A stretch of DNA of 6,844 nt, from contig JAHFAK010000034.1 in the NCBI GenBank assembly GCA_023250585.1, positions 1 to 6,844 of the forward strand, written 5' to 3'. Below the pieces are notes generated by a model. The model did not search any database, was not told where the DNA came from, and saw only the letters and a program-made list of their open reading frames with translations. The stretch's first letter is position 1. Each line of letters begins with the position of its first letter. Source of the stretch: Deltaproteobacteria bacterium. GTDB lineage: Bacteria; Bdellovibrionota_F; JAHFAK01. A program made the translations under genes and the position numbers. Below, one piece after another: positions 737 through 6,844 of the stretch.

Positions 737-1306
737 ATGAAAAAAAGTATAACATTTTTTGTGCTTCTAACCATGAGTTCATTTCTCTGTGCGCATTCCC
801 TTGAGAAAAAAATCCAACGTCCGATTAGGTTAGATGAGTTAGTTGCCCAGTCAAAGGTTATTGGCGTAGCAAAATATATCGGCGCAACCGAAGGGAAAAG
901 AAATTTTCGTGGTACGTACGATCTTAGGTATACGATTCGTGAATTTAGAATTATTGAATCACTTGTGGGAAATATGAAACAAGGTGAGCGATGTGTCCTT
1001 GCAGAAGCAAAAGACATCAAAAAAACATCGGTGTATCCCTCATACAGAATTAATTTTAAAAAAGGTCATACCTATATTATTTTTTCAGATGCACCAAAAG
1101 ATTTTAGCTACAAAAATACTAATGAAGAAATGGTGACGAACAAACGCATAAATCTTCTTGATAGTCGTGCGACTATCCACGTCCAAGATTCACCTGAAGG
1201 GGTACAAGAAATTGAACGGAGCAACAAACTTTTTAATCTCTCGGTTACTTCATTTAAAGAACTAAAAGAAATAATAAAAGTTTTGATTTCTCAGAAAGTA
1301 AGATGA
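737..1306 (+). CDS. Small secreted protein, first gene of the protease operon
   Basis: This encodes 189 residues of a protein I cannot assign to a named family. It has a clear signal peptide (MKKSITFFVLLTMSSFLCAHS) with likely cleavage around residue 20. The mature part begins with a segment of the form LDELVAQSKVIGVAKYI, continues with alternating beta-strand-like stretches (YDLRYTIREFRIIESLVGN), and has a later strand-like GHTYIIFSD. This layout resembles small secreted beta-barrel-like proteins in which a 'site of variable function' segment precedes an F-x-V-x-x-x-L-K-G-like strand, but that is an impression rather than a match. The ATG at 737 is chosen over an in-frame TTG at 662 because it gives the signal peptide, has GGGGA nine bases upstream and lies downstream of a good promoter. 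Its stop overlaps the start of the metalloprotease gene (ATGA), so the two are almost certainly co-transcribed and translationally coupled. A role as chaperone, inhibitor or partner of the protease is inference from position only. Confidence 0.8.
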   Translation: MKKSITFFVLLTMSSFLCAHSLEKKIQRPIRLDELVAQSKVIGVAKYIGATEGKRNFRGTYDLRYTIREFRIIESLVGNMKQGERCVLAEAKDIKKTSVYPSYRINFKKGHTYIIFSDAPKDFSYKNTNEEMVTNKRINLLDSRATIHVQDSPEGVQEIERSNKLFNLSVTSFKELKEIIKVLISQKVR

Positions 1307-3120
1307 TGAAAATATTTTGGACTTCCATTCTGATGTTCTTTTGTATGCAGCATTTGAGCTATGGTTTTACGCCACTGGACAGTCGCCAAGATTCGATTAT
1401 TCAAGGAGCTTACTGGCCTCGTACATCTTTTGATTTTTATCTCGATAAAGATAATGAATTGCCATTGGTAAATAACGAAGAGACAGTTATTCGTAATGCC
1501 CTCAATGAATGGACTGATTTAGAAACGTCATATATTGTGCTCAACGTTGTAGGCACAGCAACACGAACTCAAGCTGAAACAGAAGGAAGTGGCGTAGATT
1601 TTTTTATCTACTTTGATGAAGATGGATCAATGACTGAAGAGCTGACGGGCACCCCCAACAGTATTCTTGGGCTTGCATATTCTACTGCAAACACTAAGGG
1701 CGAATACGTGAAATCCCTTGTTATTTTGAATGGGCTGACCATTGATAGCGAAGAAGTTCTTCGCACAACGGTTATTCATGAAATTGGACATTTCTTAGGC
1801 CTCGATCATTCGACATTTTATTATGAAAATAGTGCAATATCATTTATGTATCCTCAAGATAACGACAATATCGTTGACCTTGTACAAGACGATATCTCAG
1901 GGATGAGCAGCATTTATCCGGAAGAAAGTTTTAGTTCGCAGTTTGGCGCGATTACCGGAAACATAAGCTTTGTCGATGGAGCGCCTTTATTTGGAGCTGA
2001 TATTGTAGCTATCGATGCAGTAACACTGAAGCCTGTCATGTCGGCAAGCGTTGGTTTTCCCTCATGTTTTGGCAATAGTTATACGCAGGCGCCGGGTGAT
2101 TTCATATTGCCCGGTTTACCCGCAGGTAATTACTATCTCAAAGTCGAAAGCTATCCTATTTTTGGCGGACTATCTTCGGGTGGCGTTTTTCTCATTGAAG
2201 ATGAAGCAATTTCTGATAATGGCTCGGGAGTCGGTATTTATGATTTTTTTAATTTTATAGAGGGAATCCCAACACGATATTATCCAGAGTCGCCAACTAT
2301 TAATAATGGAAAAATGATCTCAGTAGAAGCAGGAAAAGTAGCAAACGCTGCGATGAATATTGCATTTCAATATAATCCTGGTGCGCTGATTTCGTTGTAT
2401 CATACGCGGCCTGCAGATCTTGATATATCCATTGCGATTGGCGCAAGCACCAGTGGGCCATATGATTATTCTAAGAAAGTAGAACTCAGCGATCCCGATG
2501 GAGATGGATTTGTAAATGCAGAAGTTGATATGAAAGAAGCTGAAGCTTTTCTTCCTCCTTCAAGTAATAAAAAAATATTTTTACTCTATCGCGATACGGT
2601 TGCAAATGGGCTTGATGGCGCACTCCTTGGTTTTTCTGTGTATTTTAATAAAACCGTATATTTTAAACAAATTACCAGTACTGATGCATATATAAGTTTT
2701 TCACGATCAGCATCTACAATGAGTATTGATGGAAGCAATTCCTATTCCACAGAAAAATTTTCCCGTGATATTGGTTTTGATGCTCGTTGCAACAGTCCGC
2801 AAGGAACAACTAATGTAGGAGGAGTTTATTATCCACTGCATGGAGAAACATCTCAGGATGATGATCTCCCTCCAAATGAAAATACCCCGAAGGATCCAGC
2901 TTCAGCAGGATCTTCTCCTTCCTCAAATACCTCGTCGGGTGAATCATCGGACACAACTACCGTAGTTAATCCTGAGATTAGCGGTAATGAAACTTCAGGT
3001 GGCTGTATGTTGGTTACTCAGAGGGCATCTGATAATGAAATAGTGATACTTATACTTTTGTGTATGTTTGTTTTAACAAGAATACGTAACAGCTCATTTA
3101 ATGGGGGAGTAAGGGAGTAG
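1303..3120 (+). CDS. Secreted matrixin-type zinc metalloprotease with C-terminal anchor
   Basis: This 605-residue protein has a signal peptide (residues 1 to about 21) and a matrixin-like (peptidase M10A) domain at about 35-205. The zinc motif HEIGHFLGLDH covers residues 159-169, with H159, H163 and H169 as ligands and E160 as catalytic base, and the Met-turn is M182 in SFMYP. A carboxypeptidase-regulatory-like beta-sandwich follows (about 215-286, GAITGNISF to GNYYLKVES). Next come a region with an Asp-rich, possibly calcium-binding DPDGDGFVNAEVD (397-409) and a low-complexity Ser/Thr/Pro/Asn linker (about 520-563). The end is Gly-Gly-Cys (C568), a hydrophobic helix (about 580-592) and basic RIR, the order of cysteine-type CTERM sorting signals. 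No pro-domain cysteine switch is evident. The start is ATGATG at 1303, overlapping the upstream stop, with no strong Shine-Dalgarno of its own. The last six or seven residues (FNGGVRE) and the TAG stop lie in the palindromic element downstream. The catalytic assignment is firm; substrate and anchoring mechanism are unknown. Confidence 0.9.
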   Translation: MMKIFWTSILMFFCMQHLSYGFTPLDSRQDSIIQGAYWPRTSFDFYLDKDNELPLVNNEETVIRNALNEWTDLETSYIVLNVVGTATRTQAETEGSGVDFFIYFDEDGSMTEELTGTPNSILGLAYSTANTKGEYVKSLVILNGLTIDSEEVLRTTVIHEIGHFLGLDHSTFYYENSAISFMYPQDNDNIVDLVQDDISGMSSIYPEESFSSQFGAITGNISFVDGAPLFGADIVAIDAVTLKPVMSASVGFPSCFGNSYTQAPGDFILPGLPAGNYYLKVESYPIFGGLSSGGVFLIEDEAISDNGSGVGIYDFFNFIEGIPTRYYPESPTINNGKMISVEAGKVANAAMNIAFQYNPGALISLYHTRPADLDISIAIGASTSGPYDYSKKVELSDPDGDGFVNAEVDMKEAEAFLPPSSNKKIFLLYRDTVANGLDGALLGFSVYFNKTVYFKQITSTDAYISFSRSASTMSIDGSNSYSTEKFSRDIGFDARCNSPQGTTNVGGVYYPLHGETSQDDDLPPNENTPKDPASAGSSPSSNTSSGESSDTTTVVNPEISGNETSGGCMLVTQRASDNEIVILILLCMFVLTRIRNSSFNGGVRE

Positions 3121-3237
3121 GAATGTTCCCAAAAAGAATTTCTATCGACGTCGCTTACCCCATTCTTAATAGTACTATGGAAGCGACGTCGATAGAAATT
3201 CTTTTTGGGAACATTCCTACTCCCTAATAACTGGAGG
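3098..3237. repeat. Long palindromic element, copy 1 (45 bp perfect arms)
   Basis: The left arm 3112-3156 and right arm 3181-3225 are perfect 45-base reverse complements around a 24-base spacer (3157-3180, beginning ACCCCATTCTTAATAG). The spacer contains a 10-base palindrome, ATAGTACTAT (3169-3178), and each arm ends in AatII-type symmetry GACGTC near the spacer. Homology to copy 2 extends beyond the arms: 13 identical bases on the left (3098-3110, TTAATGGGGGAGT) and a weaker CTGGAGG tail on the right (to about 3237). The element sits between converging genes and contains the protease stop codon. As RNA it would form a very stable hairpin from either strand, likely to protect 3' ends or attract RNase III. 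There is no U-run after either arm, so it is not a standard intrinsic terminator. It has no coding capacity and resembles a MITE or REP-like element; no transposase or clear target duplication is seen. Confidence 0.9.
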
Positions 3238-3256
3238 ATTACAAGAATACTGTGTG

Positions 3257-3667
3257 TTAGGAAGTTGTAGCGGGCTTCATCGAGATAGTAATGCTGACGA
3301 CCTCTCCATCAAAAATTCCAAATGAATTGTCAGTTTGGGAATAACGACTTAATGGATCCACGGCACTGAGTGAACCCTCCATAATTTTACAATCAGCGGT
3401 AGCGGCTTCACAAGAAAAGACCTGTATTTCAGGAAAAAGTCCCCATTGAGTGGGAAGATCACTTGTTTTAAATTTTTGTTCTCCACTTTTGTCAAAGAAT
3501 TGGGAGTAAAGCTCGTTACCAGCAGAATCAAAGATAATAAATGCATAGCGTTTACCGCTGTCATACTGAGCTTGTAATGTAGAATCTACTGAAATAAAAA
3601 CTTCAAGTTGATGGGTGGGCCCACACGATACAAAGAGTAGGATGAAAGCTATCGCAAAAATTCTCAT
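3257..3667 (-). CDS. Putative lipoprotein of unknown function
   Basis: This encodes 136 residues that I do not recognise. The N-terminus MRIFAIAFILLFVSCGP is a short lipoprotein-like signal with Cys15 as the predicted lipidation site. The lipobox (F-V-S-C) is slightly atypical because Phe sits at -3. The mature part alternates hydrophobic and polar residues as in beta-sandwich proteins (LEVFISVDS, YAFIIFDSAGNELYSQFF, EVVSITISM). It contains two cysteines close together (SCEAATADC) that could form a disulphide in the periplasm. The ATG at 3667 is chosen because it starts the signal directly; the frame extends to a TTG at 3703, but that TTGACA looks like a -35 box. No Shine-Dalgarno is visible. 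The gene is flanked on both sides by copies of the palindromic element, converges on the protease gene and lies downstream of, and in the same direction as, the penicillin-binding protein gene. A role in envelope maintenance would be a guess from context. Confidence 0.72.
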   Translation of the reverse strand: MRIFAIAFILLFVSCGPTHQLEVFISVDSTLQAQYDSGKRYAFIIFDSAGNELYSQFFDKSGEQKFKTSDLPTQWGLFPEIQVFSCEAATADCKIMEGSLSAVDPLSRYSQTDNSFGIFDGEVVSITISMKPATTS

Positions 3668-3674
3668 AAACAAA

Positions 3675-3703
3675 AGCGTAAATAATGCAGTGTTATTTGT
3701 CAA
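3675..3703 (-). promoter_or_regulatory. Possible promoter of the lipoprotein gene
   Basis: A perfect -35 hexamer TTGACA (3703-3698) is followed 17 bases later by TACGCT (3680-3675), a poor -10 match (three of six). If used, transcription would begin almost at the ATG at 3667, giving a leaderless message like that predicted for the leftmost gene. The upstream palindromic element would isolate this promoter from the penicillin-binding protein transcript, so a dedicated promoter is expected here. Confidence 0.25.
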
Positions 3704-3734
3704 TCAATGATCAGAAATGAAAGTAATGACTTAG

Positions 3735-3876
3735 TTAATGGGGGAGTTAGGGGAGTAAGAATGTTGCAAAAAAGTATTCCTATCGACGTCGCTTCCATAA
3801 TACTATTAAGAACGGGGTAAGCGCGCTCGATAGGAATACTTTTTTGCAACATTCTTACTCCCCTAGTACCTGAGGC
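3735..3876. repeat. Long palindromic element, copy 2 (47 bp arms, spacer inverted)
   Basis: The left arm 3748-3794 pairs with the right arm 3819-3865 except for three consecutive mismatches (3787-3789 against 3824-3826, where ACG of copy 1 has become CGC on the right). The 24-base spacer 3795-3818 (starting CCATAATACTATTAAG) matches the reverse complement of the copy 1 spacer at 22 of 24 positions. The outer left flank (3735-3747) is identical to copy 1 in the same orientation, and the right flank (CCTGAGG, to about 3876) is similar. Relative to copy 1 the arms carry five changed base pairs and one extra G:C pair, each matched on the opposite arm. The element fills the gap between the penicillin-binding protein stop codon and the lipoprotein promoter and would fold into a strong hairpin in that transcript. 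No coding content is credible. Confidence 0.9.
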
Positions 3877-3877
3877 A

Positions 3878-6844
3878 TCAGAAATGAAATGGTAAGAATA
3901 GTCGTTTTGGTTCACAATTTTCAGTATCAGCAGCGAGAATTCGAATAAAGAGGGTATCTTCATCTCGTTCACTGGGAATATTCTCATAGCAGATATGCTC
4001 TTTCATGAGGCCAGTATTCTTATCAATTGGCGCGTAGAGGAGAAAATTTGGTTTGTATAATGGGAGATAACGAGATGATTGAAATACGAGATCAGCAAAA
4101 TCAATCCATTGCCCTAAATTTTCATGTATAACGATTTTTTTTGCGATATCTCGCCAAATGGGTAATGCACCTGTTGCTCCTGCAATACGTAGGACTTCAT
4201 TTTTCATCTCACGATTATCATCATAGCCAACATAGGTTGACATAACATATGCATGTCCAATATCGAGCCCTCGATTTTCTTCATATGCAGGAAGAAAGCC
4301 AATAAACGATGAATTTGTATAGTCATTTGTTGTTCCTGTTTTTCCAAAGGCAGGAATTTTAATTCGATAATTTTGTTCTCCATGTGCACCAGCATCTAGG
4401 TAAAGAGTATTATCAATGAGTCGGCCAGTCCCGTATTTAATAACATTATTGAGAATACTTGAAACAAGGTATGATATCTCTTCTGGTGTGATTTTCTTTT
4501 CTTCTGTTACCATTTCATAAATAATTTTGCCTTTATTGTCGGTAATTTTTTTTATGATATTTTGATTCGTGCCTGCTCCATGCTCATTGACGGGATTAAG
4601 AAAGAGATTCCCTGAAGCTATCGTTTGAAATACGGTAGCGAGCTCTAAACATGATACGGAATTTGATCCGAGAGGAAATGAGAGAACTTCATCGAGATTC
4701 GTGCGTATACCAAGAAGATGCGCAAGGCGGGTGATATACTTAAGGCTCACGAGTGTCCTAAAATCCTGTTGATAGAAAAGGGTAGGTAAATCAACACTAA
4801 TGATTGGTTTCAATGCAAGATAGCGTTCGTCGAGTTTTTTGCGTAACGCTTTTACGGTAGCGATACTTATTTTTCCATCAATGAGTACTTTATCCTCAAG
4901 CTCTTCTTTATTATCGGTGGTAAGCAAGCGCTGCGCGAGATATTTATCCAGCATGACATATTCAAAATCACGTTCTTCATCATCTTTTGCCTTATGTGCT
5001 TTTACTTCATACTCCTTAAAATATACTAACCGATCATCAGGAATAAAGAGTATCGTTTTGGTTCCATTGGTATATAATTTAAGATAGAAATTTTTGAGGG
5101 TATCATTGGTAAAAGCTTCACCACTGACTAAGGCTTCTATTTTTTTTCCTAAAATACCGGCGAATGCTTCAATTCGTAAAAAATTATTGTCAGCGATGCG
5201 AATTTTATTTTTTGTCTCATCAATACTTATTCTGACTTTATTGACATTGGTGTCTTTCTCAGGTGTGCGGAGTAATCGCTCAAGCTCTTTTAATTCATCT
5301 TCCAATCGTTCGATTTCAGCTGCAAATCCATATCCATAATTCATTTGCTTAAGATTCTTTGCTTGGATGTTTTTTCCATCAAAGGTAAGATCGGTAATAA
5401 TGTCATGTTTTAAAACTGAAAATGGATAGATCAATAATTTGTCTTTTGAAAGTGAAATACCGTATTTTCCTTGAATGAGGTTTACGAATTCTGTTTTGCC
5501 AAGCGAAGAAGGTGAAAGATTGACGAGTTTACATATGGTTTCAAACTGGCTGAAATTAAGCTGATCCAGCAAGTGATAGAGAAGATATATACTCGCAAGG
5601 TTTTCTGATTGAGCTCCTGCCCACGTTAATGAAACAGTCTCCGGCGCATCGGTATGATCGGGGCGGGGAAAATAATATGTTTCAAAATAGGGATATACAT
5701 TTCGTATATTATCAAGAGCATCAACATTATGCCAGCCAAGGCTCAAGGCAGCGGTATAAAGAATTACTTTAAAGATACTTCCCGGTTGGCGTTTTGCCTG
5801 TATGGCACGGTTGTAGTCTTTATTAGTAAAGCCACCAACAACGGCTCTCATGAGTCCATCTTTTAAAATAATAGCCCCGCCATTGATTTCGGGAAATTGT
5901 TCAATATCTACGAGCGGTGTTTCTTTTTCAAATCCTTTAATACTTATCAAAAAATGATCATCTTTTTTAAGTGAAGTCAGAAATTTGTATATATCCTGAT
6001 CACTACTGGTAGCATAATAACCATTTCTGTTTTTGAGTGAGGTATCAACAAATTGTTTAAGTGCTTCGTATGATATCTTTCCTTCTTGGCCGTAAATATC
6101 AACAACAATATTCGTCATTTTAGGATTTAATTGTTTTGAATTTTTTTCAAAATTGATCTTTTTAATTTGAGCAAGATAGAATTCATATTTTTGTAATGGT
6201 GTGGTCGGAGGAAAATAGGTTTCATATATATCGGGTTTTTTAATTTTTTTAAAACCATTCAAAATAATATCAAGTTGCGAGAGATTTTTTCTCATGTGAT
6301 AAAGACTTTGTTCCTCAAGGTCTTTATTGATAGTCGTATAGATCCTCAACCCCGATGTCGTAATGTTTTGTATTACCTCTTCTCCCACAATATCTTTGAG
6401 TTGTTTTTTCAATTCATTTTTTGTCATATCAACAATGACATTGCTTTTAAAAGAGAAGGTGCCGATATTAAATGGAATTTTTTCTTTAACTGCTCTATCA
6501 AATTGCTCCCCCGTGATAAAACCAAGCTTAAGCATATTTTCAAGAACATATGCTTTTCGTGTCATCGCTCTTTCGTATGCTTTTTCTTGCAGCTTTTTAT
6601 CGCGATAAAAATAGGGATTATAGCGATTAGGACCTTTGAGCGTTCCAGCAATAAAGGCACATTCATTTAAGCTGAGCTCATACGGCTCTTTATTGAAAAA
6701 ATATTTCGAAGCAATTCCAATACCTCGACCGTTGCTATTTACATAAAATTGATTGATGTAGAATTCAAGAATCTCCTCTTTGGTGTAATAGTGTTCAAGT
6801 CGAAATGTATCAATGAGTTCAATAAATTTTGCTCGAAAGGTTCT
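3878..6844 (-). CDS. Class A penicillin-binding protein (transglycosylase/transpeptidase), 5' end missing
   Basis: This bifunctional peptidoglycan synthase polymerises glycan strands (GT51 domain) and cross-links stem peptides (transpeptidase domain) at the outer face of the inner membrane. The frame runs without a stop off the right edge, so 988 codons are visible and the start, membrane anchor and catalytic EDxxF motif are missing. An internal ATG at 6565 is not the start, because 93 codons upstream encode GT51 sequence: the K-x-x-E motif in RAKFIE, TKEEILEFYIN, GIGIASKYFFNK, and LNECAFIAGTLKGPNRYNP. In codons counted from the window edge, the linker includes GLRIYTTINKDLEEQ, then come the active-site serine SIFK (codon 356, bases 5779-5777), SEN (codon 413) and KTGTT (codon 835, from 4342). 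The KTGTT region continues as in PBP1A proteins (TYVGYDDNREM, GATGALPIWRDI). The gap from SxN to KTG is about 422 residues against roughly 190 in E. coli PBP1A; the extra part includes a coiled coil (EIERLEDELKELERLL). The stop lies against palindromic element copy 2. Confidence 0.95.
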   Translation of the reverse strand, partial: RTFRAKFIELIDTFRLEHYYTKEEILEFYINQFYVNSNGRGIGIASKYFFNKEPYELSLNECAFIAGTLKGPNRYNPYFYRDKKLQEKAYERAMTRKAYVLENMLKLGFITGEQFDRAVKEKIPFNIGTFSFKSNVIVDMTKNELKKQLKDIVGEEVIQNITTSGLRIYTTINKDLEEQSLYHMRKNLSQLDIILNGFKKIKKPDIYETYFPPTTPLQKYEFYLAQIKKINFEKNSKQLNPKMTNIVVDIYGQEGKISYEALKQFVDTSLKNRNGYYATSSDQDIYKFLTSLKKDDHFLISIKGFEKETPLVDIEQFPEINGGAIILKDGLMRAVVGGFTNKDYNRAIQAKRQPGSIFKVILYTAALSLGWHNVDALDNIRNVYPYFETYYFPRPDHTDAPETVSLTWAGAQSENLASIYLLYHLLDQLNFSQFETICKLVNLSPSSLGKTEFVNLIQGKYGISLSKDKLLIYPFSVLKHDIITDLTFDGKNIQAKNLKQMNYGYGFAAEIERLEDELKELERLLRTPEKDTNVNKVRISIDETKNKIRIADNNFLRIEAFAGILGKKIEALVSGEAFTNDTLKNFYLKLYTNGTKTILFIPDDRLVYFKEYEVKAHKAKDDEERDFEYVMLDKYLAQRLLTTDNKEELEDKVLIDGKISIATVKALRKKLDERYLALKPIISVDLPTLFYQQDFRTLVSLKYITRLAHLLGIRTNLDEVLSFPLGSNSVSCLELATVFQTIASGNLFLNPVNEHGAGTNQNIIKKITDNKGKIIYEMVTEEKKITPEEISYLVSSILNNVIKYGTGRLIDNTLYLDAGAHGEQNYRIKIPAFGKTGTTNDYTNSSFIGFLPAYEENRGLDIGHAYVMSTYVGYDDNREMKNEVLRIAGATGALPIWRDIAKKIVIHENLGQWIDFADLVFQSSRYLPLYKPNFLLYAPIDKNTGLMKEHICYENIPSERDEDTLFIRILAADTENCEPKRLFLPFHF

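Follow-up and report, generated by a model that had tools for sequence, protein, structure and literature searches.

The window analysed here, the whole stretch of 6,844 nucleotides, is contig C87 of a 2.24-Mb draft genome in 164 contigs. It contains a Peptidase_M10-like ORF (1303-3120) and, on the minus strand, a penicillin-binding-protein ORF (3878-6844), along with two long palindromes that lie exactly where the original prediction had placed them. The first pairs perfectly, i.e. its 45-bp left arm (3112-3156) is complementary to its right arm (3181-3225) at 45/45 positions (100%), both on the plus strand. The second, with 47-bp arms at 3748-3794 and 3819-3865 (plus strand), had been described as fully compensated, but is 94% complementary: the CGT at 3787-3789 is unpaired with 3824-3826, near the loop.

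Five base-pair differences between the copies, each compensated on the opposite arm, proved exact on re-reading (5/5). Compensation is nevertheless not complete, since 3787:3826, 3788:3825 and 3789:3824 are non-Watson-Crick pairs in copy 2 and perfect in copy 1. A feature absent from the earlier description is an inversion of the 24-nt loop: that of copy 2 (3795-3818, plus strand; CCATAATACTATTAAGAACGGGGT) is the reverse complement of that of copy 1 (3157-3180, annotated on the minus strand) at 22/24 positions. With RNA fold z-scores of -14.6 and -13.6 against shuffled sequences and a like pattern in 40 genomic copies, the two palindromes are far from what chance would produce.

Only their centres had been seen before, the palindromes being part of elements of 157 and 159 bp. 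Copy 1 (3086-3242, plus strand, 157 bp) is complete, with 15-bp terminal inverted repeats consisting of an a-type end (3086-3100, plus strand; GTAACAGCTCATTTA) and a b-type end (3228-3242, minus strand), and is framed by the identical 8-mer AAGAATAC at 3078-3085 and 3243-3250 as an 8/8 target-site duplication. Copy 2 (3723-3881, plus strand, 159 bp) is likewise complete, its a-type end at 3723-3737 (plus strand), its b-type end at 3867-3881 (minus strand) and its 8/8 duplication, AAATGAAA, at 3715-3722 and 3882-3889. The a end carries approximately nine extra nucleotides, a spacer of about AATGGGGGAGT that follows the terminal repeat and is missing from the b end. Because AAGAATAC and AAATGAAA differ, the two copies are separate insertions. 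The stop codon of the Peptidase_M10-like ORF (3118-3120) falls inside copy 1 and that of the penicillin-binding-protein ORF (3878-3880) inside copy 2; the C-termini of both ORFs were probably altered by element insertion.

A MITE family in the host genome

The original prediction had proposed a search for further genomic copies and had named their absence, together with a local duplication, as the outcome that would speak against it. Instead, copy 2 gave 63 matches in the host genome, which resolve into 40 copies, a lower bound (at least 40, on dozens of contigs). Alignment of the flanks delimits complete elements of ~157 bp. Most copies carry GTAAYNNCTCAGTTA as 15-bp terminal inverted repeats at their two ends, and the 8-bp target duplications match, at the exact junction, at 8/8 positions in 17/40 copies and at 7/8 in 11/40. 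Each palindrome is thus the core of a miniature inverted-repeat transposable element (MITE), a small non-autonomous transposon: 157 bp long, non-coding, present in 40 copies and equipped with terminal inverted repeats and a fixed-length target duplication. An element which could not previously be placed is thereby assigned.

All 20 loci examined have intergenic insertions, in mixed gene context (10 codirectional, 6 divergent and 4 convergent). Scans for promoters and terminators at the elements remained at chance level, revealing no terminator- or RNA-like context, and Rfam gave no family match. The family was not found in 40 relatives, among which only one other genome is of the host's class. 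A scan of 84,980 species genomes, from which near relatives of the host are perhaps missing, for a 19-mer of the core returned nothing except two chance matches in unrelated sequence without a palindrome, and the 19-mer is absent from IMG/VR viral contigs.

A second MITE family shares the terminal repeats and likewise has duplications of 8 bp, but it differs in its core, which consists of two GC-rich hairpins (GTCATCCCGYGGCTTGACCRCGGGATCC); its members are found at L066:1501-1661, L068:415-570, L098:93-250 and 1686-1843, L078:1501-1658, L099:229-386 and L100:220-375. The GTCATCCCGYGGCTTGACCRCGGGATCC hairpin has 58 exact matches in the host genome (both strands counted) and none in 191 other genomes. 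It also forms pairs, oppositely ordered and spaced by ~230 bp (G000:C35:90-346 and G000:C42:24450-24706), which suggests another element type. Shorter elements of 71-106 bp have the same terminal repeats and 8-10 bp duplications (L096:213-283, L078:2617-2698 and L081:1501-1606), and at the end of contig C34 (L119) a solitary terminal repeat adjoins, by eye, an apparent start of the clpB gene.

A candidate source of transposase

An intact element with the MITE ends was not found in the host genome. Contig C20, however, holds a decayed relative with the same a end (GTAACAGCTCAGTTAATGGGAGAGTTAGG), followed by a short, apparently broken IS4-like ORF. An IS4-family transposase would carry DDE and YREK motifs; only 72 N-terminal residues of this partner ORF are left, with a weak match to the IS4 transposase model NF033592 (E=0.0065). 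They share 60% identity with a portion of an ORF from one other genome and 43% with an ORF from a second, and the latter ORF matches the IS4 transposase model at E=2.4e-13; Pfam and plasmid searches with the C20 ORF returned nothing. An IS4-like transposase that has since decayed was probably responsible for moving the MITE.

Other candidates were set aside: two further DDE_Tnp_1 genes are without paired matching ends, and the homologous IS4-like ORFs in the two other genomes are without matching terminal repeats. Elements of the IS66 family have GTAA ends and generate an 8-bp duplication, features that suggested such an origin here, yet the PF03050 transposase is absent from the genome in a search whose control works. 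The IS4 family resembles the present case in that the N-terminus of the partner ORF weakly fits its transposase model and that its subgroup ISPepr1 makes duplications of 7-8 bp; the published ISPepr1 end motif, YT-AA-YTT, is by contrast not clearly matched by GTAAYNNCTCAGTTA (PMC2266710).

Arms matched within copies, cores in either orientation

For a comparison across the family, each copy was split at its loop and the left arms were aligned with the reverse complements of the right ones. Over the 39 columns compared, the arms of the 40 copies differ on average by 3.5% within copies versus 19.2% between copies. There are 38 distinct left arms, and for 34/40 copies the own partner arm is at least as near as that of any other copy. 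Arms without any mismatch were found in 27/40 copies and unpaired changes in 13. In alignment A1, two-sided changes fill 154 cells over 27/45 pairs, compared to a mean of 36.9 in shuffles, while no slid control has more than 19; covariation is higher than in any slid control or any of the 500 shuffles. The tally of two- against one-sided differences that had been put forward as a check therefore came out clearly two-sided, with only 12 one-sided cells, of G-U type, in which pairing is retained; unpaired cells are few outside three columns, as judged by the pair count over copies.

Many of the mismatches reside in L030 and L043, neither of which has a target duplication, and in the degraded L045. 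L030 and L043 also have related flanks and strongly mismatched arms, and they look like recombinants between copies. The arm polymorphisms are mosaic (91/219 four-gamete violations), implying that copies also exchange sequence or mutate recurrently. Between copies, the loop differs by 5.2%, the arms by 17% and the terminal repeats by 18-21%, and the TATCGA inner repeats and the inner stem are nearly invariant.

Core orientation was defined by the loop relative to the a and b ends, five of the 40 copies being assigned by end type. In the single draft assembly from which it was read, this orientation is random relative to the ends and unlinked to core relatedness: 24 copies face one way and 16 the other, nearest core relatives agree in 18/40 cases versus 20.3 for shuffled labels, and L011 and L016 combine identical cores with opposite orientations. 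The inner asymmetry invariably turns together with the loop. The inversion crossover has to fall within the matched arms, outside the inner mismatch and inside the ends. The 3-nt mismatch beside the loop persists in 36-37/40 copies and has been made symmetric in both directions, to the left type in window copy 1 and L034 and to the right type in L039.

The youngest subfamily (L010, L011, L014, L016 and L017) illustrates how single changes arise. Over the whole 113-nt core, columns 26 and 92, which form one pair, are the sole difference between L010 and L011. L010 is likewise separated from L014 by a single pair, columns 11 and 107, in this case through a transversion; the chance of a difference confined to one compensated pair is ~0.003 per comparison. 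Among singletons, ten are paired, including two compensated one-base indels, versus three unpaired.

Arm matching after insertion

The target duplications provide a clock that starts with each insertion. A duplication is recognisable in 34 copies, in four of which it was assigned manually as shifted or of 9 bp; across these 34, the duplicates differ at 16/272 positions (5.9%) and the arms at 17/1257 (1.35%; Fisher P=4e-5). By this clock, arm matching was held after insertion. A simulation of uncorrected mutation at the duplication rate predicts ~73 unpaired arm sites versus the 17 seen, and ~35 if a broader loop rate is used, for which ~12 events were counted by eye. The slowest clock, based on loop singletons alone, leaves no deficit, with 14.8 expected and 17 seen. 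The deficit hence depends on the clock, the target-duplication clock being the most direct. Unpaired sites are commonest in the loop-proximal third of the arms (10/442 versus 5/442 and 2/442), although these numbers are small.

Template switching as the favoured explanation

On its own, the excess of two-sided cells fits hairpin selection and arm-to-arm correction alike. The original prediction had offered both explanations and called the latter simpler, and it is the latter that the evidence now favours: the arms are probably kept matched mainly by template-switch correction from one arm to the other within the MITE core rather than by a selected hairpin function. During its replication, the core would fold into a hairpin or cruciform, and the nascent strand would switch template between the arms, with the sequence of one overwriting that of its partner. 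A single step could thereby yield compensated substitutions and indels, and intermolecular switches would invert the loop. Fold-back after copying of the inner stem would rewrite positions outside the primer while often sparing the inner mismatch, with which the loop-proximal excess of unpaired sites agrees.

Template switching is known to homogenise the arms of inverted repeats and, if intermolecular, to invert their spacer (PMC8604942), and it can create and maintain hairpins (PMC8794818). In the present family, arms are homogenised within each locus and the spacer occurs in both orientations, and it is this combination of arm matching with core inversion, the published signature of template switching, that favours arm-to-arm correction over hairpin selection. 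Further support comes from the random orientation, the two-way symmetrisation of the 3-nt mismatch, the compensated indels and transversions and the near-identical copies that differ by one pair. It seems an even bet that the core has been arm-copied and inverted so often that its orientation is fully randomised and its arms diversify as matched pairs, the compensated changes being due to mutation alone.

Several points stand against template switching. The 3-nt mismatch lies inside the palindrome, where frequent and unbiased correction should have removed it from more of the copies, barring a switch that mostly starts beyond it. Conservation is higher in the loop than in the arms or the terminal repeats, and the loop may have a constrained function. 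The slowest clock gives no shortage of unpaired arm mismatches, and the paired changes could be earlier than insertion.

The strongest rival, though an unlikely one in our estimation, is selection for a functional hairpin, be it an RNA or a piece of DNA that some protein recognises, under which one-sided mutations are harmful and give way to compensated pairs. Recognition would then fall on the loop and the internal mismatch, both of them conserved, and their position beside variable paired stems does resemble a structured RNA; hairpin compensations in REPINs have been read in this way (PMC3116915). Yet selection does not predict a random core orientation, and it would have to act at more than 30 unrelated loci that have no common gene context, no terminator and no Rfam family. 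Moreover, 7/10 paired singletons (five transversions and two indels) cannot be reached via one G-U intermediate, and G-U cells are not enriched among the mismatches.

Far less credible is that the conserved inner repeats (TATCGA...) are the target of a site-specific recombinase which inverts the loop, with arm matching caused separately. The near invariance of TATCGA and the inner stem would suit such an enzyme, as would the joint movement of inner asymmetry and loop, but the matching of the arms is left unexplained and the inverted segment (~35-50 bp) is very short by the standards of known DNA invertases. We give equally little credence to an assembly artefact in which a short-read assembler merged the arms and picked loop orientation arbitrarily. 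Palindromes are indeed hard to assemble and the genome is a draft of 164 contigs; overlaps at contig ends did not reveal the assembler's k-mer. However, merging 38-bp arm variants by bubble removal would by argument need a k of ~18 or less, a k-mer longer than the arm would fix the orientation of the loop, and the 3-nt inner mismatch, the unpaired changes in 13 copies and perfect target duplications have all survived. Simple duplication within the window, of little meaning and suggested by a distance of just 638 bp between its copies, is refuted by their separate target duplications and by the dispersal of at least 40 copies.

Implications and relation to known systems

Compensated changes in stems are standard evidence for a functional RNA structure. 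Since the MITE family offers ~40 independent copies, a built-in clock in its target duplications and an orientation marker in its core relative to the ends, selection and template switching become separable. If template switching holds true, RNA discovery in bacterial repeats can be misled where it relies on covariation alone, and the compensatory changes reported in REP- or ERIC-like elements deserve re-examination. The family would then constitute a natural mutation-accumulation set in which compensated stem changes arise at a high rate through a mutational process alone.

In common with bacterial MITEs, the elements are short and gene-free, with terminal inverted repeats, a fixed-length target duplication and many intergenic copies. 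Unlike in those, nearly the entire element is one palindrome, its arms covary within copies and its core faces either way with respect to the ends. REPINs and REP/BIME elements are also dispersed extragenic palindromes with compensatory hairpin changes, which have been reported as common in REPINs (PMC3116915). REPINs, however, are tied to RAYT transposases, whereas the present family has an IS4-like partner, ends in terminal inverted repeats and is flanked by an 8-bp target duplication. Template-switch (quasipalindrome) correction shares with it the homogenisation of arms, the inversion of the spacer and the maintenance of hairpins (PMC8604942, PMC8794818). Whereas those cases were described at unique yeast loci and in RNA genes, here the process is proposed for a dispersed family, with ~40 independent replicates.
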